64,000 nt of DNA. Origin: Flavobacteriaceae bacterium. GTDB lineage: Bacteria > Bacteroidota > Bacteroidia > Flavobacteriales > Flavobacteriaceae. The stretch is from contig QXZA01000024.1 in assembly GCA_009886625.1 (NCBI GenBank), forward strand, positions 62,001-126,000, in the 5' to 3' direction. Made by a program: the position numbers and the translations under genes. Positions within the stretch are counted from its first letter, which is position 1. Each line of letters begins with the position of its first letter. Shown here in pieces: positions 2,065 through 64,000 of the stretch. The notes under the pieces were generated by a model that worked only from the letters and a program-made list of their open reading frames with translations, was not told the DNA's origin and made no database searches.

Positions 2065-2994
2065 ATGAAAAAATTAGTAATCTTCTTATTTGCTGTAATT
2101 CTGATTTCTTGTGAGAAAGAGGAAGCCGAGTTAAGTGCAAAGTTGTCTATTGAAAAGGCATTAGGAATTGTTGCATCAAAATCTCCACTGGGAGGGGAAG
2201 CCCTTTTTTTTCAAAATATTCGTTATGGAAATGAAACCAGAAATGTCTTAGATATTTTGGTTCCAAATGAAGGGGTGTCAAAAGGGGTAGTTTTGTTTTT
2301 TCACGGGGGAGGCTTTGTGGCTGGGGATAAAGAGGACGCATATGATGACTTATTAAGAGCAACCCTTAATTCTCTTATAGAAAACAAAATTACCATTGTT
2401 AGTGCGAATTACACCTTTATTAATACCCCAGGAAGTAATGGAGTTATTTCTGCTTTGGAAGATGGGACAGCAGCAATAAATTTCATCAAAAGCCAATTAA
2501 ACACCTTACAAATTCCCACGAATAAAATCGTTTTAGCTGGGGTTTCTGCAGGAGCGGGAATAGCACAATGGAACGGATTTCAAGAGTCGAGTAATGCTCA
2601 AGTTCAAGGAGTTATGGCTATAGCAGCTCAGAGCACTTATGATCTATATGAATGGGAAAATGTATTTCCAGGATTTTCATTAGATGATTTAAGAGAAATG
2701 AGTCCAGTTTTACAAACTCTTTTTTCTCAGTTTTACAACGGTGAACCCACACAAGAAAACTTGGATGCTTTAGACTATAGAGGCTTCATGGATGCAACAG
2801 ATCCTCCACTTTATGTTTTTAATCAAGCTGGAGATGAATTGATTAATAGCAAAGGACAATTAGATTTTGATGTGTTGTATCACAGTTTTAGACATAGTGA
2901 TTATTTACGCAGCAAAGCAATAGAAGTTGGATTACCTTTCTCTGGCATCTATGCAGAAAATCTTGAGGAATTTGTACTACGGGTGTTGAAATAA
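2065..2994 (+). CDS. Alpha/beta-hydrolase lipoprotein (carboxylesterase-like)
   Basis: Secreted lipoprotein of 309 residues. The N-terminus is a lipoprotein signal with the lipidation cysteine at residue 16 (ILISC). The hydrolase core carries the oxyanion-hole motif FFHGGGF near residue 80 and the nucleophile elbow GVSAGAG near 160, typical of the hormone-sensitive-lipase / carboxylesterase groups. A late aspartate (AGDELI) and a histidine (FRHSDY) are plausible remaining triad members. Substrate is unknown. It stands 34 bases after hflX and is followed by a 293-base gap with no clear gene. I see no signs of damage. Confidence 0.75.
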   Translation: MKKLVIFLFAVILISCEKEEAELSAKLSIEKALGIVASKSPLGGEALFFQNIRYGNETRNVLDILVPNEGVSKGVVLFFHGGGFVAGDKEDAYDDLLRATLNSLIENKITIVSANYTFINTPGSNGVISALEDGTAAINFIKSQLNTLQIPTNKIVLAGVSAGAGIAQWNGFQESSNAQVQGVMAIAAQSTYDLYEWENVFPGFSLDDLREMSPVLQTLFSQFYNGEPTQENLDALDYRGFMDATDPPLYVFNQAGDELINSKGQLDFDVLYHSFRHSDYLRSKAIEVGLPFSGIYAENLEEFVLRVLK

Positions 2995-3023
2995 TCCTGC
3001 TTCAATTGAATCGAATTACCCAA

Positions 3024-3267
3024 TCAAAATACATTGTAAGAATTTTCTTTCTTTAATCTTTTGCCAAAATCAGCTATTCCTGCACGAGCAAAAGAAAATT
3101 TTTCGCCGCTGATCGTAAATAAACTTTCAGATTTCTCGATTTAATCCTCTCTATCAGAACAATAGTTTGAAGTCAGAAACAAGAGGATAAATGCAGAGTA
3201 AGTTCTTGGCATTGTATAGCATTAGGACAATTAAAAGCAATAAAAATTTATGTATTGAAATTTTCAT
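3024..3267 (-). pseudogene. Possible decayed short exported gene
   Basis: The gap between the esterase and the SDR gene holds two adjacent short open pieces on the minus strand. The first starts at ATG 3267 and reads a hydrophobic, signal-peptide-like stretch (MKISIHKFLLLLIVLMLYN) before a TGA at 3154-3156. The second, open from about 3140 down to a TGA at 3024-3026, reads a protein-like segment containing GEKFSFARAGIADFGKRL. Together they look like remnants of one small secreted protein, but I do not recognise it and chance is not excluded. Confidence 0.2.
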
Positions 3268-53915: not shown

Positions 53916-56900
53916 ATGTATTTAATCTTTGATACCGAAACCACCGGATTGCCCAAGCGCTGGAATGCGCCCTTAAGCGACAGTGAAAACTGGCCGCGCT
54001 GTATTCAAATTGCTTGGCAAATTCACGATGCGAAAGGGGAGGTGGTTGCTCATGAAGATTATTTAATTCACCCCGACGGTTTTACCATTCCCTTTGACTC
54101 TGAACAGGTACACGGGATTTCCACCGCCCTGGCAGAGGATCAAGGAATTCCTTTAGAAGAAGTGCTGGAAAAATTTCACACAGCGCTTGATCAAGTAGAT
54201 TATGTGGTGGGACACAATGTGTCTTTTGATCGAAACATTATGGGTGCTGAGTACCTGAGATCTGGTTTGGAAGATGTACTTGAAAACAAGGCTGTTATAA
54301 ATACCTGTACCGAAGAAACGGCTCAGTTGTGTCAATTGCCTGGAGGTCGAGGGGGAAAATTCAAATTGCCCACGCTTTCAGAATTGTATCGCTTTCTTTT
54401 TCAAGAAAGTTTTATGGAGGCTCATAATGCTACAGCCGATGTAGAAGCGACCTCTAGGGCGTTTTTGGAACTTCTACGTCAAGATAAAATTCACCCCAAA
54501 GCTTTTGATAATCAAGCGGTACAGACCGCCAAGCTAAAAGAAGTTACTTCTCCTTTTGATTTAATTGGCCTGACGCATCAGAACCTTAAGGGAGCTTCCT
54601 TAAAATTTAAAGAAAAGGCAAGGCCGGAGTCCCCAACAGCTTCTACATCTTTAGATCCCTTAGTGGCGGATGCGCCTTTTGTCCACCTGCACAATCATTC
54701 TCAGTTTTCAGTTTTACAAGCAACCTCACGAGTTAGCCAGCTGGTGGAAGCTACAGCTACTCATAAAATGCCTGCAGTAGCAATTACAGATCATGCTAAC
54801 TTAATGGGTGCTTTTCATTTTATAAAAGCAATCAAAGCGCATAACAAGGCATTAGAACCGGAAGAACAACAAATTAAGCCCATCATTGGATGTGAGTTTT
54901 ATGTTTGTGATGATCACACAGATCGATCTCGAAGAGATGATGGTTATCAAATGGTTTTCTTGGCAAAAAACAAAAAGGGTTACCACAATTTGGCAAAAAT
55001 GACTTCCATGGCCTATGTAAATGGATTTTATTACGTTCCTAGAATTGATCGTGAGATTATAAAGCAGTACAAGGATGATTTGATTGTATTGTCTGGAAAT
55101 ATGTATGGTGAAATTGCTTCAAAGATATTGAACCTAGGTGATCGTCAAGCAGAGGAGGCGCTACAATGGTGGCATTCGGAATTTAAAGACGATTTTTATA
55201 TTGAACTCATGCGACATGACGAAGAGGGAGAAGATCGTGCCAATAGTGTTTTAGTAAAGCTTGCACAGCAATATGACATTCCTCTGATTGCAACCAACAA
55301 TACTTATTATACCAAAAAAGAGGAAGCCAACGCACATGATATTTTATTGTGTGTTAAGGAAGGAGAAAAGCAGGCAACTCCAATTGGTCGTGGTAGAGGT
55401 TTTCGACATGGTTTCCCCAACCATGAATATTATTATAAGTCGCCAGAAGAAATGAAGGCCTTATTCAATGACCTTCCTGAGGCGATACTGAATATTGAAG
55501 CTTTAGTCGCTAAAATTGAGCCTTTTGATTTAGCCCGTGAGGTGTTGTTGCCCAAGTTTGAAATCCCAGAGAGCTATCAAGTTCCAGATGATCCTGATGG
55601 TAAGAAAGGAGAGAATTCTTATTTATATTTTTTGACCTATCAAGGGGCTGAAAAAAGATATGGAATTCTGAATGAAGAGATCAAAGAAAGGATAGATTTT
55701 GAACTTAGTGTAATTGCTAAAACAGGATATCCTGGATATTTTCTAATCGTTCAAGATTTGATTGCTGCTGCCAGAGAATTGAATGTTTCTGTAGGTCCTG
55801 GAAGAGGATCTGCTGCAGGATCTGTTGTTGCTTATTGCTTGAAGATTACCAATATTGACCCTATCAAGTATGATCTACTTTTTGAGCGTTTCCTTAATCC
55901 TGATAGGGTAAGTATGCCCGATATCGATATTGATTTTGATGACGAGGGCAGGACTAGAGTCATGGATTATGTGATCAATAAATACGGTTCTAATCAAGTG
56001 GCACAAATTATCACTTATGGAACCATGGCAGCCAAATCTTCCATTAGAGATACTGCTCGTGTTTTGGACTTACCTCTAGGAGAAGCGGATCGAATTGCTA
56101 AGCTGTTACCCAACATGAAGCTTGGGAAAATTTTTGGTCTAAACGATCAGGAATTGAAAAAGAGTTTAAGAGCAGATGAGCTTTTGAAAGTCAATGAAAT
56201 AAAAAACTTGGCCGATGAGGACAATTTGTCTGGAGAAACCATTCAGCAAGCAATAGTTTTGGAAGGATCCCTGCGCAACACGGGAACTCATGCCTGTGGA
56301 GTGATCATTACTCCAGATGATATTACTCAATTTGTCCCTGTTGCTACAGCGAAAGATTCGGACTTATATGTAACCCAATTTGACAACTCTGTGGTTGAAG
56401 ATGCAGGTCTATTAAAAATGGATTTTTTAGGACTCAAAACCTTAACCTTGATTAAGGACACTGTAGAGTTGGTAAAATTCAAGCACAATATTGACTTGGA
56501 TCCAGACGCATTCCCACTTGATGATGAAAAAACCTACGAATTGTTTCAAAGGGGAGATACCGTTGGAATTTTTCAATACGAATCTGCCGGGATGCAAAAG
56601 TATCTCAAGGAATTAAAACCTACTGTTTTTGCTGATTTGATTGCAATGAATGCCCTCTACCGTCCAGGACCTTTGGAATACATTCCAAGTTTTGTGGATC
56701 GTAAAAATGGAAATGAAGAGATCAGTTATGACCTTCCAGTGATGGCAGAATACCTGGAAGAAACCTATGGAATTACAGTTTATCAAGAGCAAGTAATGCT
56801 TTTGTCTCAAAAGTTAGCCGGCTTTTCTAAGGGTGATGCTGATGTGTTGAGAAAGGCAATGGGAAAAAAAATATTTGCCTTACTGCAAAAATTGAAACCC

Positions 56901-58235
56901 CAATTCATTGATGGAGGAAAAAAGAATGGACATCCAGAAGAAATATTAGAGAAAATTTGGAAAGATTGGGAAGCCTTTGCAGCTTATGCTTTTAATAAAT
57001 CACATTCTACTTGTTATGCTTGGATTGGGTATCAGACGGCTTACTTAAAAGCACATTATCCTGCAGAATACATGGCAGCTGTTCTCTCAAACAACATGAG
57101 TGATATTAAGCAGGTTACCTTTTTTATGGAAGAATGTCGTCGACTTGGACTTAAGGTTTTGGGTCCCGATGTAAACGAATCGTTTTACAAATTTGCAGTG
57201 AATGACGAGCATGCCATTCGTTTTGGAATGGGAGCTATAAAAGGTGTTGGGAAAGGGGCAGTAGAGACCATAATCGAGCATCGTAAAGACCAACCTTATG
57301 AATCAATTTTTGATTTGGTAAAACGGATCGACTTGAGAGCAGCAAATAAAAAGGCGTTTGAAAATCTAGCTTTGGCAGGAGGATTTGATTCGTTTCCAAA
57401 TGTAAAAAGAGCCCAGTATTTTAATCCTGATGGAGATGGAATTACATTTTTAGAAAAGGCATTGCGATTTGGCTCCAAATACCAAGAAAATTTGAACTCC
57501 TCCCAAACTAGTTTGTTTAGTGAGGAAACGACCAGTACATATCAGGACTTAAGCATTCCTGATTGTGAGGCGTGGACTAATTTGATACGTTTGAAGAAAG
57601 AAAAAGAGGTGGTTGGAATATATATTTCCTCTCACCCTTTAGATGATTTTACTCACGAAATTGAACATTTTATTACACTCTCCTTAAATCAATTAGGGGA
57701 TTTGGATCGGCTTGTTAATCGGGAATTTTCTGTAGGAGGGATTGTAAATGAGATTCAGCATTTAGAAAGCAGAAATGGAAAGGGATGGGCACGTTTTATC
57801 GTTGAGGATTTTACTGATCAGTATGAGTTTAGAATTTTTGGAGAGGACTATTTAAAATACAGGCATTTCCTAGTTGTTAATCAGTTTATTCGATTGCGAT
57901 TAATGATTCGTGAGGGGTGGACCAATCGAGAGACTGGGAAAGTGGGTGCGCCACGTATGCAATATTTGCATTTTGAGATGCTACAGAATACCGTTGAAAA
58001 TAATACAAAGAAACTAACGTTACAACTCGAAATCTCCAAGCTTAAGAATGAAGATGTAATCCAGTTACAGGATGAATTAAAATCCTTTAAGGGAGACAAG
58101 CCACTGTTGTTTAATGTATACGACTCTGAGAAAAAGGTAAAATTGACATTGAATAGTAAAAAGCAGAAAGTCAGAATTACTCCTGAGTTACTCAAATTAT
58201 TGGATAAAAAACAATGGCATTATAAGTTGAATTGA
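53916..58235 (+). CDS. dnaE: DNA polymerase III alpha subunit with N-terminal exonuclease
   Basis: Replicative polymerase of 1439 residues. An N-terminal DEDDh exonuclease (about 1-195) is fused, with Asp6 and Glu8 in FDTETTGL, the VGHNVSFD block near 93, and the HNATADVEAT block near 170. The PHP domain follows (VHLHNHSQFSVLQ, about 257-269). Polymerase motifs: GPGRGSAAGSVVAY near 625 and the catalytic PDIDIDFDD near 667. An OB-fold lies near the end. This fused form is the standard Bacteroidetes DnaE. The ATG is divergent from mfd. Confidence 0.94.
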   Translation: MYLIFDTETTGLPKRWNAPLSDSENWPRCIQIAWQIHDAKGEVVAHEDYLIHPDGFTIPFDSEQVHGISTALAEDQGIPLEEVLEKFHTALDQVDYVVGHNVSFDRNIMGAEYLRSGLEDVLENKAVINTCTEETAQLCQLPGGRGGKFKLPTLSELYRFLFQESFMEAHNATADVEATSRAFLELLRQDKIHPKAFDNQAVQTAKLKEVTSPFDLIGLTHQNLKGASLKFKEKARPESPTASTSLDPLVADAPFVHLHNHSQFSVLQATSRVSQLVEATATHKMPAVAITDHANLMGAFHFIKAIKAHNKALEPEEQQIKPIIGCEFYVCDDHTDRSRRDDGYQMVFLAKNKKGYHNLAKMTSMAYVNGFYYVPRIDREIIKQYKDDLIVLSGNMYGEIASKILNLGDRQAEEALQWWHSEFKDDFYIELMRHDEEGEDRANSVLVKLAQQYDIPLIATNNTYYTKKEEANAHDILLCVKEGEKQATPIGRGRGFRHGFPNHEYYYKSPEEMKALFNDLPEAILNIEALVAKIEPFDLAREVLLPKFEIPESYQVPDDPDGKKGENSYLYFLTYQGAEKRYGILNEEIKERIDFELSVIAKTGYPGYFLIVQDLIAAARELNVSVGPGRGSAAGSVVAYCLKITNIDPIKYDLLFERFLNPDRVSMPDIDIDFDDEGRTRVMDYVINKYGSNQVAQIITYGTMAAKSSIRDTARVLDLPLGEADRIAKLLPNMKLGKIFGLNDQELKKSLRADELLKVNEIKNLADEDNLSGETIQQAIVLEGSLRNTGTHACGVIITPDDITQFVPVATAKDSDLYVTQFDNSVVEDAGLLKMDFLGLKTLTLIKDTVELVKFKHNIDLDPDAFPLDDEKTYELFQRGDTVGIFQYESAGMQKYLKELKPTVFADLIAMNALYRPGPLEYIPSFVDRKNGNEEISYDLPVMAEYLEETYGITVYQEQVMLLSQKLAGFSKGDADVLRKAMGKKIFALLQKLKPQFIDGGKKNGHPEEILEKIWKDWEAFAAYAFNKSHSTCYAWIGYQTAYLKAHYPAEYMAAVLSNNMSDIKQVTFFMEECRRLGLKVLGPDVNESFYKFAVNDEHAIRFGMGAIKGVGKGAVETIIEHRKDQPYESIFDLVKRIDLRAANKKAFENLALAGGFDSFPNVKRAQYFNPDGDGITFLEKALRFGSKYQENLNSSQTSLFSEETTSTYQDLSIPDCEAWTNLIRLKKEKEVVGIYISSHPLDDFTHEIEHFITLSLNQLGDLDRLVNREFSVGGIVNEIQHLESRNGKGWARFIVEDFTDQYEFRIFGEDYLKYRHFLVVNQFIRLRLMIREGWTNRETGKVGAPRMQYLHFEMLQNTVENNTKKLTLQLEISKLKNEDVIQLQDELKSFKGDKPLLFNVYDSEKKVKLTLNSKKQKVRITPELLKLLDKKQWHYKLN

Positions 58236-59356: not shown

Positions 59357-62300
59357 TTGGGGGATTTAAAGAATTTACTAACTGTAATTATTATAATATG
59401 TTCGCTCCCTCTAAGCGCGCAAGAAATAATACTAAATTCAGATTTTAAAAATACACAGATTCGTTCTCAGCGAGTCGAATTGGCTGTAGCAATAAACCCA
59501 AGTGAAAGCTTTGCTGGAGACTTAAAGATTTCTTTTGGAACAAGTACGACTTCTTTAACCACTCATTTGGTAGCTTCGATCTCAGACCAAGATAATTTTA
59601 CTTCTTACGAAAACAATACAAGAACTTTTATTTTCGACCAAGAAAATTTAACAGCAAACACAAGGTATTATTACAAGTGGTCACTTGAAACAACAACTGC
59701 TGGGACTATTGAAGAAGAAATTAAGAATATTACAACTCCAAGTGGTTTTGCAGTACTCCCCTATCAAAATTTTGAAATTCCAGAGGTAGGCTTGATTCCA
59801 GGAGATACGATAGGATACATCAAATATGAGGACACAGACGGTACTTGGACCAAAGTGCAAACCTATTACAAAACTACTTTAGGTCTTAAAGAAAACGGTA
59901 GTCTTTGGGCATGGGGAAGAAATTCAAGAAAGTTAGTAGTTAATCCAGCAAGTGAATCTGAGGTTGTATACGAGCCCATTCAAGTCATGACTCCTCCCAG
60001 TCCAGAACAGATTGATGCGGATAATGATGGATTTTTGAATATTGATGAAGAATTAAACAACCAGTCTGATCCTAATGATCCTCTAAGCCAGCCATTAGAT
60101 AGTGATGGAGATAGATTTTCAGATGCTCTCGAAATACTTTTGGGAAATAATCCATATGATGGTTATGTGACACAGGAAGAAGACATTAGAATAAATAAAT
60201 TCTTTGTCGAAGAATTATTTGATTCCGCAAATCAAATTTTATTTCATGATTTTGCAGTCTCAAGAACCGCAGTTCTTGCAATTGATAAAACTTCAAGGCA
60301 TCTATACTACTGGGGGGATGGCAATGGAAATATAAATCTTAACTCTCGGGTTTATGATGATCACATTCAAAACAGTCAACACCTTATCGACGAACCCGAC
60401 TCAAATGTACTTCCGTTAAATTATTCACTGGCTGACTTACTGTCAGGAAATACAATTATAAGTAACTTTCCTGAGGTAATTGATACTTTATTGAGGTGGG
60501 ATAAAGTGGCGATATCGAATAATTTTGTAAACCCTAAAATACCTAATATTAACAATCTTGGTGAAGTATACGATACTACAGCTGCTGGGATTACAGAAGA
60601 TGGAGAATTGTATATCTGGGGTGTTATTGATGGGCTGATGTTACCAAATTATTTGAATGTAAGTAATGGGATGACCTGGAAAGATGTTAGGGTAGGTGAT
60701 GCTATTATTGCATTGGCCGACAATGGGACAATCCATGAGATAGGAATGAATATCCCAACTTCTGCGAATGCATCTAACAAGGATAGGGACAATGATGGTG
60801 TTGCAGATATCGATGATGCTTTTGAATGGGACCCAGCCTTTCAATATGATAATGATGATGACGGGTTTCCAAACAAAATAGAGGATCAAGTAGGTACTGA
60901 TAAAAATAATCCTGATACTGATGGTGACGGTGTTATGGATGCGGAAGACCAACTTCCTTTAGATAGTAATTATTCTAAGGACTCTGATTTTGATGGATTA
61001 CCTGATGAACTAGATCCTAATGATGATAATTGGGATAGTGACGGTGATGGCGTGCCAGATGGGGAAGATGCTGATCCCTCTGATAGTTCCAAAAGATGGG
61101 ATTGCGATAAGGATGGTATAAGTGATGAAGAGGAATGGCAGAGAAATGCAGACCCTTGTATCTTAGATACAGATGGTGACGGTGTTGATGACAAAGATGA
61201 TAAATACCCTAGAACGTGGTATTACCAGTATGATAGTGATGACGACGGTCTGCCAGATGCGTTAGAAACCATAAATGGGACAGATCCAAATAATTCTGAT
61301 AGTGACGGTGATGGATATTTAGATGCTATTGCGGCTTCTAAATTCGATATTTTTAGACAAGCCGCCAATAATTTAGATTGCTCCGAGGGCTGGGAACGTT
61401 GTGATCAATGGCTTTATTTTTGGAGATTTTGGGACATTAAATATGATTGTGACGGAAATGGATGGATTTCTTGGGAAGAATGGGAAGGAATAAGTGACGC
61501 GTGTCAGAACCTTCAACCTAGAGATGAATTTCCAAATAATGCTTTATACACAGCAGATACAGATCGGGATGGGGATCCTGATGAAATTGATGAAGACGAC
61601 GATAATGATGGGTTTAAAGATGTTGTCGAGCTTAATTCCAGTGTAAATACTGACCCTAAAGACTGGCAAAGTCAGCCTGAAGATAATGATGGCGATCGCA
61701 TGGCTGATGTTATCGAAGTTTCTTTAGGTTTAGATCCATTTAACTGGGATACCGATGGAGATGGAGCTGCTGACGGTTGGGATGCATGGCCACTAGACGC
61801 TACAATTTCGTGGGATGATGACAAGGATAGGCTTGAAAATTGGATAGAAGAAAATAGATTAGGCACTGATCCACAAAAAGCTGATACAGATGAAGATGGA
61901 GTGAATGATAATGAGGATTTATTCCCATTAGACCCTAATCAATCCTTTGATAGTGATGGTGATGGTCTGTCTGACAGCTATGAAACCTCCCAGGGAATGG
62001 ATCCAAATTCAAAAGATTCTGATGGGGATGGATATTATGATGCTCCTTGTGACCGAACCAAAGAAATATTTTATACCGATCCTGAAAGTGGCTATTCTTG
62101 GTGGACCGATAACTGGAGAGAATGTGATGGATATTGGGCTCAGAACCCCGATAATAATAATAATTGGCAATTTTATCCCAGTTCTTGGATAGAAGATGTG
62201 TTTCCATCAGATGATACTGAGTGGGCAGATAGTGATTCTGATGGAACAGGGGATAATACAGATCAAGATGATGATAATGATGGAACAATAGATTCTGAGG

Positions 62301-64000
62301 ATGAATTTCCTAATGATTCCAGCGAACAAAAAAATACAGATAAACCTACTATTGCAAATGGATATCTAACGGACTCTAATAATAATGGAATCTTCGGAGA
62401 AGACTATAATAACGATGGGTGGGTAGAGGAAACCACTGGAGACAGAAGAAGGTTTGATTTTGTTGGGGATAATACAGATCTTGATGATGATGGAGATTTA
62501 TTTTTAGATGTTGATGAAATTGCAAGTGGAACAGATCCTTTAGATCCAGATGATTACCCAGGATCAGGATACAGAGATCAAGATGGCGATGGAGTTTCAG
62601 ACATATACGAAATTAATAATAACTCAGATCCAAAAAATTGGGATACAGATGGAGATGGAATCAGTGATGGTTGGAAATATCCTTGTTGGGATTCATCAGA
62701 TAATGCTTATTGGAAACTGTTTCTTGAAATTCCAAGCTTAAGTGCAAGCACAAAAATTGGTGATCAGTATTATATTCAACTCGAAGGGCATAATCAAGAT
62801 TATAATGATAGACTAATTGTAAATTTTGATGGACAAACTTCAAAAACCGGAGCAGAATTATTAGCGTATTTTACAAATGAATTAAATAACATAGGTCAAG
62901 TCCTTTACAATGGTGGAAGTGTTGAATCGTTTAGTGCTCAAGTATCGGGCACAAAAATTATCATAACAGGTAATGATGACAGTATAAATTTTCATTCGGT
63001 GTTCTTTAACACTTTAATAGGAGAGAATAATAAATTAATTCTTTCTAGTCATAATCACCATCAACAACAATGGAAATCAGAAGTCTATAAACAAAGAAAT
63101 ATTTCCTTAAATCAAGGTTGTTCTAATTACTTTAGATTTGGTGCAAATAAAACACAATCTCATAATGACCCTGAATTTAAATTTTTAATTGATGCTTTTC
63201 CCAATAATCCTAACGAATTTTGGGATACAGATGGTGATGGTGTAGGAGATAATTCAGATACAGACATTGATGGTGATGGTTTGAGTAACGAGAATGATCC
63301 ATTACCTTACAACTCTACTCAATCAATTGATACTGACGGTGATGGATATTTGGATAATATTGATCAAGATGATGATGGAGACGGCTGGTTAGATGTAGAT
63401 GAAATCTATAATTCAACTGACCCTCTCAACAATTCATCAATACCCGATTCTGACTCAGATAATGATGGAATTAGCGACGCATATGAAAATTCAATCGGTT
63501 CAGATCCAAATGATTGGGATTCAGACAGTGATGGAATAAGTGATGGTTGGAAAATGCCACACAGCAATAGTGAAAATCATAAAATATATATTGATATACC
63601 TAGTGCTTCTTCAATCATCAATCCAGACACTTACTACATACTATTGGAGGGTTATAATCAAGATCATAATGATTGGAAAAAAATTACTTACGAGGTAAGT
63701 ACCACGATTACAGGAGCTGAATTTTTGAATTATTTTGCAGCGGAATTAAATGAACTTGGATACATTCTTCATGATGGTGGAATTCAAGAAACTTTCCTGG
63801 CATCAGTTGAAAACAAAAGGCTTATCATTGAGCTTCAAGATGATACAAGGAATTTTTATTTCAGTGCATTTAACATTGTTATTGATAATAATATTAGCTA
63901 TTTATTGAAACATGACCATGAATCTCACTCATGGAAATCAAATATTTATAAAACTAGGAGTACAAACAATAGTTGTTGTAATTATTATAAGTTTAACGGC
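59357..64000 (+). CDS. Giant secreted TSP3-repeat protein with RCC1-like motifs (3' end outside the window)
   Basis: One frame stays open from an in-frame TAA at 59339-59341 to the right edge, at least 1548 residues. The start is taken as TTG 59357, giving a signal peptide NLLTVIIIICSLPLSAQ; no ATG is in frame. Parts in order: an N-terminal beta domain (about 25-160); RCC1-like motifs (ENGSLWAWGRN near 177, LYYWGDGNGN near 316, EDGELYIWGV near 413, ADNGTIHEIG near 452); long arrays of TSP3 calcium repeats (DxDxDGxxDxxD, about 475-1115) with one canonical EF-hand loop DCDGNGWISWEE near 698; then two copies of an unrecognised domain (from about 1117 and 1405) separated by more TSP3 repeats. Probably exported to the cell surface; a C-terminal sorting signal would lie beyond the window. 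Confidence 0.85.
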   Translation, partial: MGDLKNLLTVIIIICSLPLSAQEIILNSDFKNTQIRSQRVELAVAINPSESFAGDLKISFGTSTTSLTTHLVASISDQDNFTSYENNTRTFIFDQENLTANTRYYYKWSLETTTAGTIEEEIKNITTPSGFAVLPYQNFEIPEVGLIPGDTIGYIKYEDTDGTWTKVQTYYKTTLGLKENGSLWAWGRNSRKLVVNPASESEVVYEPIQVMTPPSPEQIDADNDGFLNIDEELNNQSDPNDPLSQPLDSDGDRFSDALEILLGNNPYDGYVTQEEDIRINKFFVEELFDSANQILFHDFAVSRTAVLAIDKTSRHLYYWGDGNGNINLNSRVYDDHIQNSQHLIDEPDSNVLPLNYSLADLLSGNTIISNFPEVIDTLLRWDKVAISNNFVNPKIPNINNLGEVYDTTAAGITEDGELYIWGVIDGLMLPNYLNVSNGMTWKDVRVGDAIIALADNGTIHEIGMNIPTSANASNKDRDNDGVADIDDAFEWDPAFQYDNDDDGFPNKIEDQVGTDKNNPDTDGDGVMDAEDQLPLDSNYSKDSDFDGLPDELDPNDDNWDSDGDGVPDGEDADPSDSSKRWDCDKDGISDEEEWQRNADPCILDTDGDGVDDKDDKYPRTWYYQYDSDDDGLPDALETINGTDPNNSDSDGDGYLDAIAASKFDIFRQAANNLDCSEGWERCDQWLYFWRFWDIKYDCDGNGWISWEEWEGISDACQNLQPRDEFPNNALYTADTDRDGDPDEIDEDDDNDGFKDVVELNSSVNTDPKDWQSQPEDNDGDRMADVIEVSLGLDPFNWDTDGDGAADGWDAWPLDATISWDDDKDRLENWIEENRLGTDPQKADTDEDGVNDNEDLFPLDPNQSFDSDGDGLSDSYETSQGMDPNSKDSDGDGYYDAPCDRTKEIFYTDPESGYSWWTDNWRECDGYWAQNPDNNNNWQFYPSSWIEDVFPSDDTEWADSDSDGTGDNTDQDDDNDGTIDSEDEFPNDSSEQKNTDKPTIANGYLTDSNNNGIFGEDYNNDGWVEETTGDRRRFDFVGDNTDLDDDGDLFLDVDEIASGTDPLDPDDYPGSGYRDQDGDGVSDIYEINNNSDPKNWDTDGDGISDGWKYPCWDSSDNAYWKLFLEIPSLSASTKIGDQYYIQLEGHNQDYNDRLIVNFDGQTSKTGAELLAYFTNELNNIGQVLYNGGSVESFSAQVSGTKIIITGNDDSINFHSVFFNTLIGENNKLILSSHNHHQQQWKSEVYKQRNISLNQGCSNYFRFGANKTQSHNDPEFKFLIDAFPNNPNEFWDTDGDGVGDNSDTDIDGDGLSNENDPLPYNSTQSIDTDGDGYLDNIDQDDDGDGWLDVDEIYNSTDPLNNSSIPDSDSDNDGISDAYENSIGSDPNDWDSDSDGISDGWKMPHSNSENHKIYIDIPSASSIINPDTYYILLEGYNQDHNDWKKITYEVSTTITGAEFLNYFAAELNELGYILHDGGIQETFLASVENKRLIIELQDDTRNFYFSAFNIVIDNNISYLLKHDHESHSWKSNIYKTRSTNNSCCNYYKFNG
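62707..63170 (+). repeat. Unrecognised domain, copy A, within the giant gene
   Basis: Coding segment for about 150 residues starting WKLFLEIPSLSAS. Shared blocks with copy B: YYIQLEGHNQDYND, TGAELLAYFTNELNNIG, NGGSVESFSAQV, KIIITGNDD, and a final WKSEVYKQRN then CSNYFRF. It directly follows DGDGISDGWK. Confidence 0.8.
63568..64000 (+). repeat. Unrecognised domain, copy B, within the giant gene (cut by window edge)
   Basis: Second copy, starting HKIYIDIPSASS. Shared blocks: YYILLEGYNQDHND, TGAEFLNYFAAELNELG, HDGGIQETFLASV, RLIIELQDD, WKSNIYKTRS then CCNYYKF. It directly follows DSDGISDGWK, as in copy A. Confidence 0.8.

Follow-up and report, generated by a model that had tools for sequence, protein, structure and literature searches.

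What is the repeated domain encoded at the end of this stretch of DNA, and what might it contribute to the protein that carries it? The stretch (the window: 64,000 nucleotides, G000:C17:62001-126000) closes with two segments that a first-pass annotation, made from the sequence alone, had described as a duplicated domain of a family it did not recognise. Each was said to follow a DGISDGWK sentence of a TSP3 repeat, and conserved Gly, His, Trp and Cys blocks were taken to suggest a folded module, perhaps with a metal site.

The host protein

Both segments lie in the last gene of the window:

59357..64000, + strand: gene of a giant, putative type IX secretion system (T9SS) surface protein, defined by its frame and by Pfam and NCBIfam domains

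The open frame codes for 3,896 amino acids from a TTG start (L009:3358-15048); the window holds the first 1,548 of these, and the gene continues for 7.0 kb beyond the window end to a stop codon at L009:15046-15048. The protein consists of a hydrophobic N-terminus (judged by eye), RCC1-like blades, a TSP3 rod, four copies of the module, an RCC1 propeller, TSP3 repeats and a type B C-terminal sorting domain. The Pfam model TSP3_bac (PF18884) scores 64.6 bits against a cut-off of 25 and covers 16 stretches, which identifies a bacterial TSP3 repeat protein; the sorting domain at the C-terminus is recognised by CHU_C (Pfam, 77.4 bits, cut-off 27) and by TIGR04131 (NCBIfam, 54 bits, cut-off 35). Directly downstream is a gene of the PorP/SprF family (TIGR03519, 179 bits, cut-off 90.6). 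A sorting domain above cut-off and a PorP/SprF partner gene together mark T9SS type B cargo, and the giant protein has both.

The other named neighbour of the giant gene is dnaE, and two further ORFs are, from their sequences, presumably thioredoxin-like and sterol desaturase-like. With these neighbours the giant gene is not encoded among flagellar or tail genes, and no phage genes were noticed across the 19-kb stretch around it. The arrangement recalls the SprB/SprF system: passages in PMC9143113 describe type B cargo such as SprB as bound at the surface by PorP-like partners, and in the giant protein a type B sorting domain is likewise followed by a PorP/SprF gene. Its RCC1 propellers and TSP3 repeats would set the giant protein apart from that system.

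Four copies of one module

The module copies are positioned as follows (the class named is that of the predicted fold, see below):

62711..63097, + strand: core of copy 1, predicted IN-type module, site 1; the last residues include the H-H----WKS block
63098..63190, + strand: tail of copy 1 with the C-NY-F block; variable, low model confidence
63578..63958, + strand: core of copy 2, predicted IN-type module, site 2; AF2 pLDDT 91.5, pTM 0.86
63959..64000, + strand: start of the tail of copy 2 (NNSCCNYYKFNG...), cut by the window end
G000:C17:126412-126801 (would-be window 64412-64801): copy 3, outside the window
G000:C17:127309-127692 (would-be window 65309-65692): copy 4, outside the window

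The duplication is genuine. Copies 1 and 2 align in BLASTP with 62 of 142 residues identical (44%; 114 bits, E 2e-38 for a single comparison), and their Smith-Waterman score of 301 compares with a maximum of 59 in 500 shuffles. However, these two are half of the set, since the gene carries a third and a fourth copy beyond the window. With 500 shuffles per pair, copies 1 and 3 score 211 (shuffle maximum 56), 3 and 4 163 (62), 2 and 3 124 (58) and 1 and 4 96 (49); even the weakest pair, 2 and 4, stands narrowly above its shuffles (59 against 51), so that every pair exceeds all 500. Four copies are also the number found in four of the seven retrieved proteins with an intact frame (the present one, L031, L032 and L098).

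The module core comprises approximately 125 residues. The H-H----WKS block sits at its C-terminal edge and the C-NY-F block lies beyond it, while copy 4 has no His, Trp or Cys block, its core being followed immediately by a TSP3 sentence. Among 20 cores (alignment A2; also A5) the only invariant column is an Asn at the end of a helix; A76 and L83 are nearly invariant, and conserved positions are otherwise mostly hydrophobic or structural.

The modules interrupt TSP3 repeats

Calcium binding by TSP3 repeats is established. In the ordinary repeats of the giant protein a D-x-D-x-DG-x-x-D motif is followed by a few residues and D-x-x-P, and calcium sentences usually succeed one another at a spacing of 22 residues. 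At the four module sites the sentences are instead 194, 182, 189 and 160 residues long, because the module sits between DGxSDG and DxFPxNPNE (DRYPDDENE at site 4). The relevant halves of the host repeats are:

62642..62677, + strand: TSP3 repeat hosting copy 1, first half (DTDGDGISDGWK)
63191..63307, + strand: TSP3 repeat hosting copy 1, second half (DAFPNNPNEFWDTDGDG...), with the repeats that follow it
63518..63553, + strand: TSP3 repeat hosting copy 2, first half (DSDSDGISDGWK)

The DGISDGWK sentences noted earlier are indeed present ahead of both copies (62654-62677 and 63530-63553), but the module interrupts a TSP3 repeat and does not merely come after one.

Two further sentences of the same protein are long (86 and 71 residues); they hold different inserts, found in the same places and with varying length in the six proteins whose TSP3 sentences were segmented (L031 is not covered). 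The 86-residue sentence (window 61298-61555) contains an EF-hand-like stretch (DCDGNGWISWEEW), for which the EF-hand models of Pfam give sub-threshold hits (E 0.004-0.008). The 71-residue sentence (window ~62015-62230) holds a Trp-rich insert with no Pfam match. In a distant orthologue (L036, aa 1638-1823) a TSP3 loop carries a strongly diverged, module-like insert that the profile missed.

Predicted fold

The expectation of a folded module is supported by a confident predicted structure of the ~125-residue core. For the copy 2 core alone (alignment A5, 16 rows) the model reaches the pLDDT and pTM listed above, with strands at 3-7, 18-26 and 35-41, a helix at 47-61, strands at 63-66, 70-79, 82-87, 94-104 and 107-115, and a helix at 119-128. 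When copy 1 is modelled with its flanks (A4, 15 rows) the core is again confident, and residues 168-209, which include the Cys block, fall below pLDDT 50.

In a VIA search with the copy 2 model the top 18 entries are all phage tail proteins (sheath, connector, portal-tail, baseplate), flagellin or FliD: 16 of them lie at Z 5.3-8.5 and the other two at 4.5 and 3.9, with antibodies starting at 3.8. The best, each with Z 8.5 at 2.4 A, are the sheath-tube of cyanophage A-1(L) over 90 residues and the portal-tail of P-SCSP1u over 86, followed by PhiTE, Mu and other phage tail proteins, the flagellins 9atl (6.9) and 4nx9 (6.3), and FliD 9m6h (6.2) and 5h5v (5.9). The same classes head the list for copy 1 (Mu Z 7.3, FliC 4nx9 6.6, FliD 5h5t 6.4), but there the antibodies follow without a break, with Z 4.8 on either side of the border. 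Values of Z 6-8.5 are middling by the tool's own note and in or near a range that unmatched models often reach, and the module structures used as queries are predicted ones. Foldseek ranks FliD first for copy 1 (E 0.018), and in a library of viral structures the first match of that copy is an unnamed phage protein (probability 1.00, E 4.5e-4). For copy 2 Foldseek places antibodies and CD8 first, with no flagellar or sheath protein in the best 50 (E 0.15 and above).

Structure comparison of these models places the predicted fold in the outer-domain class of FliD, FliC and phage sheath proteins. The closest structural matches are domains of phage tail sheaths and portal-tails (PDB 8kee, 8i4m, 9cba, 9khy; Z 7.2-8.5, rmsd 2.4-3.5 A over 86-95 residues), which share only 8-13% identity with the module; the module itself matches no PHROG better than E 0.013. 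With FliD D2-D3 (PDB 5h5t, 9m6h) and the outer domains of flagellins (4nx9, 9n8g) the module has in common the predicted fold and a helix ending in an IN-type Asn; identity is 8-16% over 90-101 residues, and the module has no match to PF07196, the Flagellin_IN family. The hosts also differ: a TSP3 rod in a type IX cargo here, the flagellum there.

The model bears as well on the proposed metal site. A metal-binding or catalytic domain working through its His, Trp and Cys clusters would accord with the HxH, Cys and W common to copies 1 and 2, with the retention of Trp and of Cys in 12 each of 14 site 1-3 modules (from five proteins, the present one included), and with the copy 2 model, in which the HxH ends the last strand within a well-predicted block (mean pLDDT 85). 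Yet neither His nor Cys is present in every copy. The best His column is kept in nine of the same 14 modules, copy 4 has none of the blocks, the Cys block falls outside the core in the poorly modelled stretch, and the one invariant residue of the cores is Asn; furthermore, a site in a relative that has no core (site 3 of L033, see below) retains the Trp and the aromatic tail, with His and Cys absent. We consider a metal or catalytic site very improbable.

Probable kinship with IN-type repeats

By sequence no library names the module. Scans of the whole protein and of single copies against Pfam, NCBIfam and PHROG gave no credible model for the modules, and no strong match of either copy to a named family arose, whereas the same scans of the whole protein return models for TSP3, RCC1-like, sorting-domain and TSP3-protein families. 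To this extent the earlier failure to recognise a family stands, but the predicted fold does resemble a known class. Flagellin_IN (cut-off 22.7 bits) is absent for 20 modules and six stretches at E up to 10, in scans where the HMMER filters discard most matches above E 0.1, and it has no match at E 0.01 in 21 genomes, the present one included. A PDB sequence search gave nothing below E 0.6, E. coli FliD alone compares with the module at E 0.3, viral contigs contained no relative, and tblastn of copy 1 against phage records returned a single match at E 3. Scattered weak hits were treated as chance, the best of them being Coatomer_b_Cpla (E 0.0015), Phage_TTP_12 (E 0.016) and a phage tail PHROG (E 0.013 to 0.017), each with a single module, and DUF3642 (best E 0.015), the only Pfam family to match two of the 20 modules.

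Profile-to-profile comparison is more informative. Against a combined IN profile, built by permissive iteration (inclusion 0.05), the module scores 37.6 (E 7.7e-7), a value reached by none of 200 column permutations (maximum 13.7) and set against 8.6 for the reversed profile; such a permutation test measures ordered similarity and is by itself no proof of common descent. When the IN-type repeats are limited to those in giant Ig-like proteins (L094-L097) of this genus, the match has E 1.5e-6 (0 of 150 permutations); dropping two repeats first detected with the module profile hardly alters it (E 1.6e-6). With flagellar IN sequences only, the match is weak (E 0.0035, probability 9%, 0 of 150 permutations). 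The flagellar and giant-protein IN sets match one another at E 1.5e-10, a value that is partly circular, as a single iterative search supplied both, and that is given no weight here. As controls, four other alignments were drawn from these proteins and reach scores of 7.9-11.5 with the module; the pattern behind one of them (ins71) was loose and its content unchecked. The profile alignments span mainly the strand-strand-helix portion (33-59 columns).

The IN-type signature is a strand, a helix ending in (I/L)N and a V/T-x-A-x-V strand. The module has this signature: in the register of the profile alignment its helix coincides with that of the IN repeats and its invariant Asn falls on the N of the motif. 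The repeats of L094-L097 differ in being shorter (~60 residues), in belonging to another protein type and in lying outside TSP3 loops in the two contexts read.

An alternative is that the module is a truly new domain, whose likeness to FliD and sheath proteins reflects a common beta-alpha-beta arrangement, that is, analogy and not kinship. The middling Z scores, the Foldseek PDB matches with E above 0.01, the missing Pfam match and the low probability of the flagellar-only profile are what this alternative would lead one to expect. Against it, a single structural class tops the ranks for both modelled copies (for copy 2 clearly separated from the antibodies), the profile match to the IN repeats of the same genus is beaten by no permutation, the control alignments fail to match, and the invariant Asn occupies the IN position. 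We think a new domain unlikely, while giving it some weight.

Two side observations concern IN-like sequence elsewhere in these genomes. The giant Ig-like proteins L094, L095, L096 and L097 are open frames of 4,919-5,422 aa with several IN-type repeats each. Within L009 itself, outside the window at aa ~2980-3160, two small stretches between RCC1 blades are IN-like in appearance; they match the IN profile weakly (E 0.0034 and 0.0073), and against the module profile they are not convincing (E 0.074 and 0.23, scores 15.0 and 12.0).

Distribution of the module

A first profile scan of contigs with the four-copy alignment returned no relative. The four-copy profile found modules in seven of 40 genomes, and an enlarged profile (A2) in ten of 38 genomes of the genus, the present genome being counted each time. 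The match in G022 and one extra match in G012 fall in another giant Ig-like protein, so nine of the 38 have a module in this protein type; in G419 there are two matches, one of them read in context. The N-terminus of the giant gene is found in 14 of the 38 genomes: the nine with modules and five others (G002, G006, G008, G421, G425), in which the gene leaves the contig within 1.3 kb. Because these five genes are cut off before the module region, every genome in which the region can be traced (9 of 9) has at least one module. The orthologue at L034 (G004:C3:126000-145999) is broken into several frames, through either gene decay or errors of assembly.

Beyond the genus, the present genome is the sole credible match among 395 genomes of the order and the sole match in a partly overlapping sample of 395 from the phylum. 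These absences are soft, as scoring in large genomes was limited to 10 first-look candidates where there were as many as 37. The one other order-level match, in G108 (E 2.9e-4), has three internal stops and was taken as chance. An HMM search with many matches beside TSP3 repeats had been anticipated as the sign of a new family; in these searches modules were found in one genus, and the family looks lineage-restricted rather than widespread in Bacteroidetes.

Parts of PMC9122927 treat MS024-2A as one genus of the NS5 marine group, and passages of the MS024-2A single-cell paper (PMC2668756) draw attention to domains of adhesion type, TSP3 among them, in the two genomes it covers. No description of the module was found in the open-access literature searched, including searches for TSP3 with flavobacteria.

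A site without the core, and apparent exchange between sites

Site 3 of L033 has no core. Its sentence measures 76 residues as against 189, and what is left is a tail resembling that of filled sites (W-x-x-x-FF-x-x-R ... LFIDKFP).

A tree was built from 26 modules, namely all matches from eight loci with E no higher than 0.001 (those of G419 excluded), with site labels assigned from the flanking sentences before tree building. Site 4 modules form one group (support 84/91, not starred), whereas modules of sites 1 and 2 are intermingled: a single clade is rejected for site 1 (p-AU 0.0006) and for site 2 (p-AU 0.0002), site 3 being undecided (p 0.42). There is one very long branch (L036) among site 1 modules and none such in site 2.

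Site 1 of the present locus (L009) illustrates the pattern. Its flank resembles other site 1 sequences (windowed identity 0.81, 0.77), whereas its core matches site 2 of L098 and L033 (0.73 and 0.71, against 0.31 and 0.41). The tail departs from site 2 of the same two loci (0.26 against 0.38, 0.29 against 0.43), and part of it is nearest to site 2 of L031 and L032 (0.50, 0.44), so the downstream border is not sharp. Cores thus seem, from sequence comparison, to have moved between sites 1 and 2 while the flanks stayed, and we read the module as behaving like an exchangeable cassette on the TSP3 loop.

The same observations bear on the view that the module is purely a structural spacer, lengthening or stiffening the stalk with no ligand of its own. 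The mostly hydrophobic or structural nature of the conserved core positions, and the lack of likeness to any known binding site, are consistent with a spacer. However, cores diverge strongly between species and seem to be swapped between sites while the flanks stay, and at one site in a relative the core is absent, all of which variable display would fit better. A spacer appears to us an improbable, if serious, explanation.

A possible function in surface display

The account we favour, with moderate confidence, is that the module is a divergent elaboration of an IN-motif outer domain, carried as a cassette within the TSP3 repeats of a giant protein at the cell surface. Computation supports the following steps: the four copies, the predicted fold, the insertion point, the core-less site in a relative, a likeness across sites 1 and 2 that is greater for the cores than for their flanks, the type B sorting domain and the PorP/SprF gene directly downstream. 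The module would have a topology of three strands, a helix, five strands and a C-terminal helix, of the IN-type class known from FliD, flagellins and phage tail sheaths, and would be inserted at one defined loop of the TSP3 repeat. The giant protein would be exported through the type IX secretion system, after which its PorP/SprF partner would keep it at the surface. With calcium bound, the TSP3 array may form a stiff rod, from which the modules would jut sideways like the outer domains of a flagellar filament. Their variable surfaces may bind algal or particle surfaces or neighbouring cells, and recombination between loops could renew these binding surfaces.

A surface rod with outward-binding side domains is proposed because of three pieces of background: the binding of type B cargo by PorP-like proteins, the variability of flagellin outer domains (passages in PMC12445082 and PMC10256154 describe these as hypervariable) and the binding of calcium by TSP3 repeats (stated in a passage of PMC2668756). 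Placement of an outer domain on a structural core is, as between flagellin and the module, an analogy. We read the module as an exchangeable and probably adhesive side domain of a type IX-secreted surface rod. For the adhesion step itself, which draws on the apparent exchange, the absence of the core at one site and the strong divergence of cores, we see about an even chance.

A broader reading, which we regard as tentative and rather unlikely, is that TSP3 loops are docking sites for interchangeable display cassettes, that an IN-type domain, common to flagellar caps and phage sheaths, has been recruited to give a T9SS surface rod its variable side arms, and that intragenic recombination between loops creates new surfaces that bind or that evade phage and grazers. 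It concerns marine Bacteroidota in whose genomes the FliD-type IN domain was not found and, if true, would be a bacterial counterpart of surface-antigen cassette variation.

With this analysis a domain that is an orphan by sequence acquires a predicted fold and a location. The results suggest that ocean bacteria carry, on calcium-rod surface proteins, a domain class otherwise seen on flagella and phage sheaths. They also suggest that TSP3 repeats have a permissive loop open to the insertion, loss and exchange of whole domains. The core, at ~125 residues, is a small single-domain target for probing what giant proteins bind.

A last observation concerns the dnaE gene of the window (53916-58235). 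In its product, a DNA polymerase III alpha subunit, the PHP domain is preceded by a fused N-terminal exonuclease domain (PF00929, residues 3-183).
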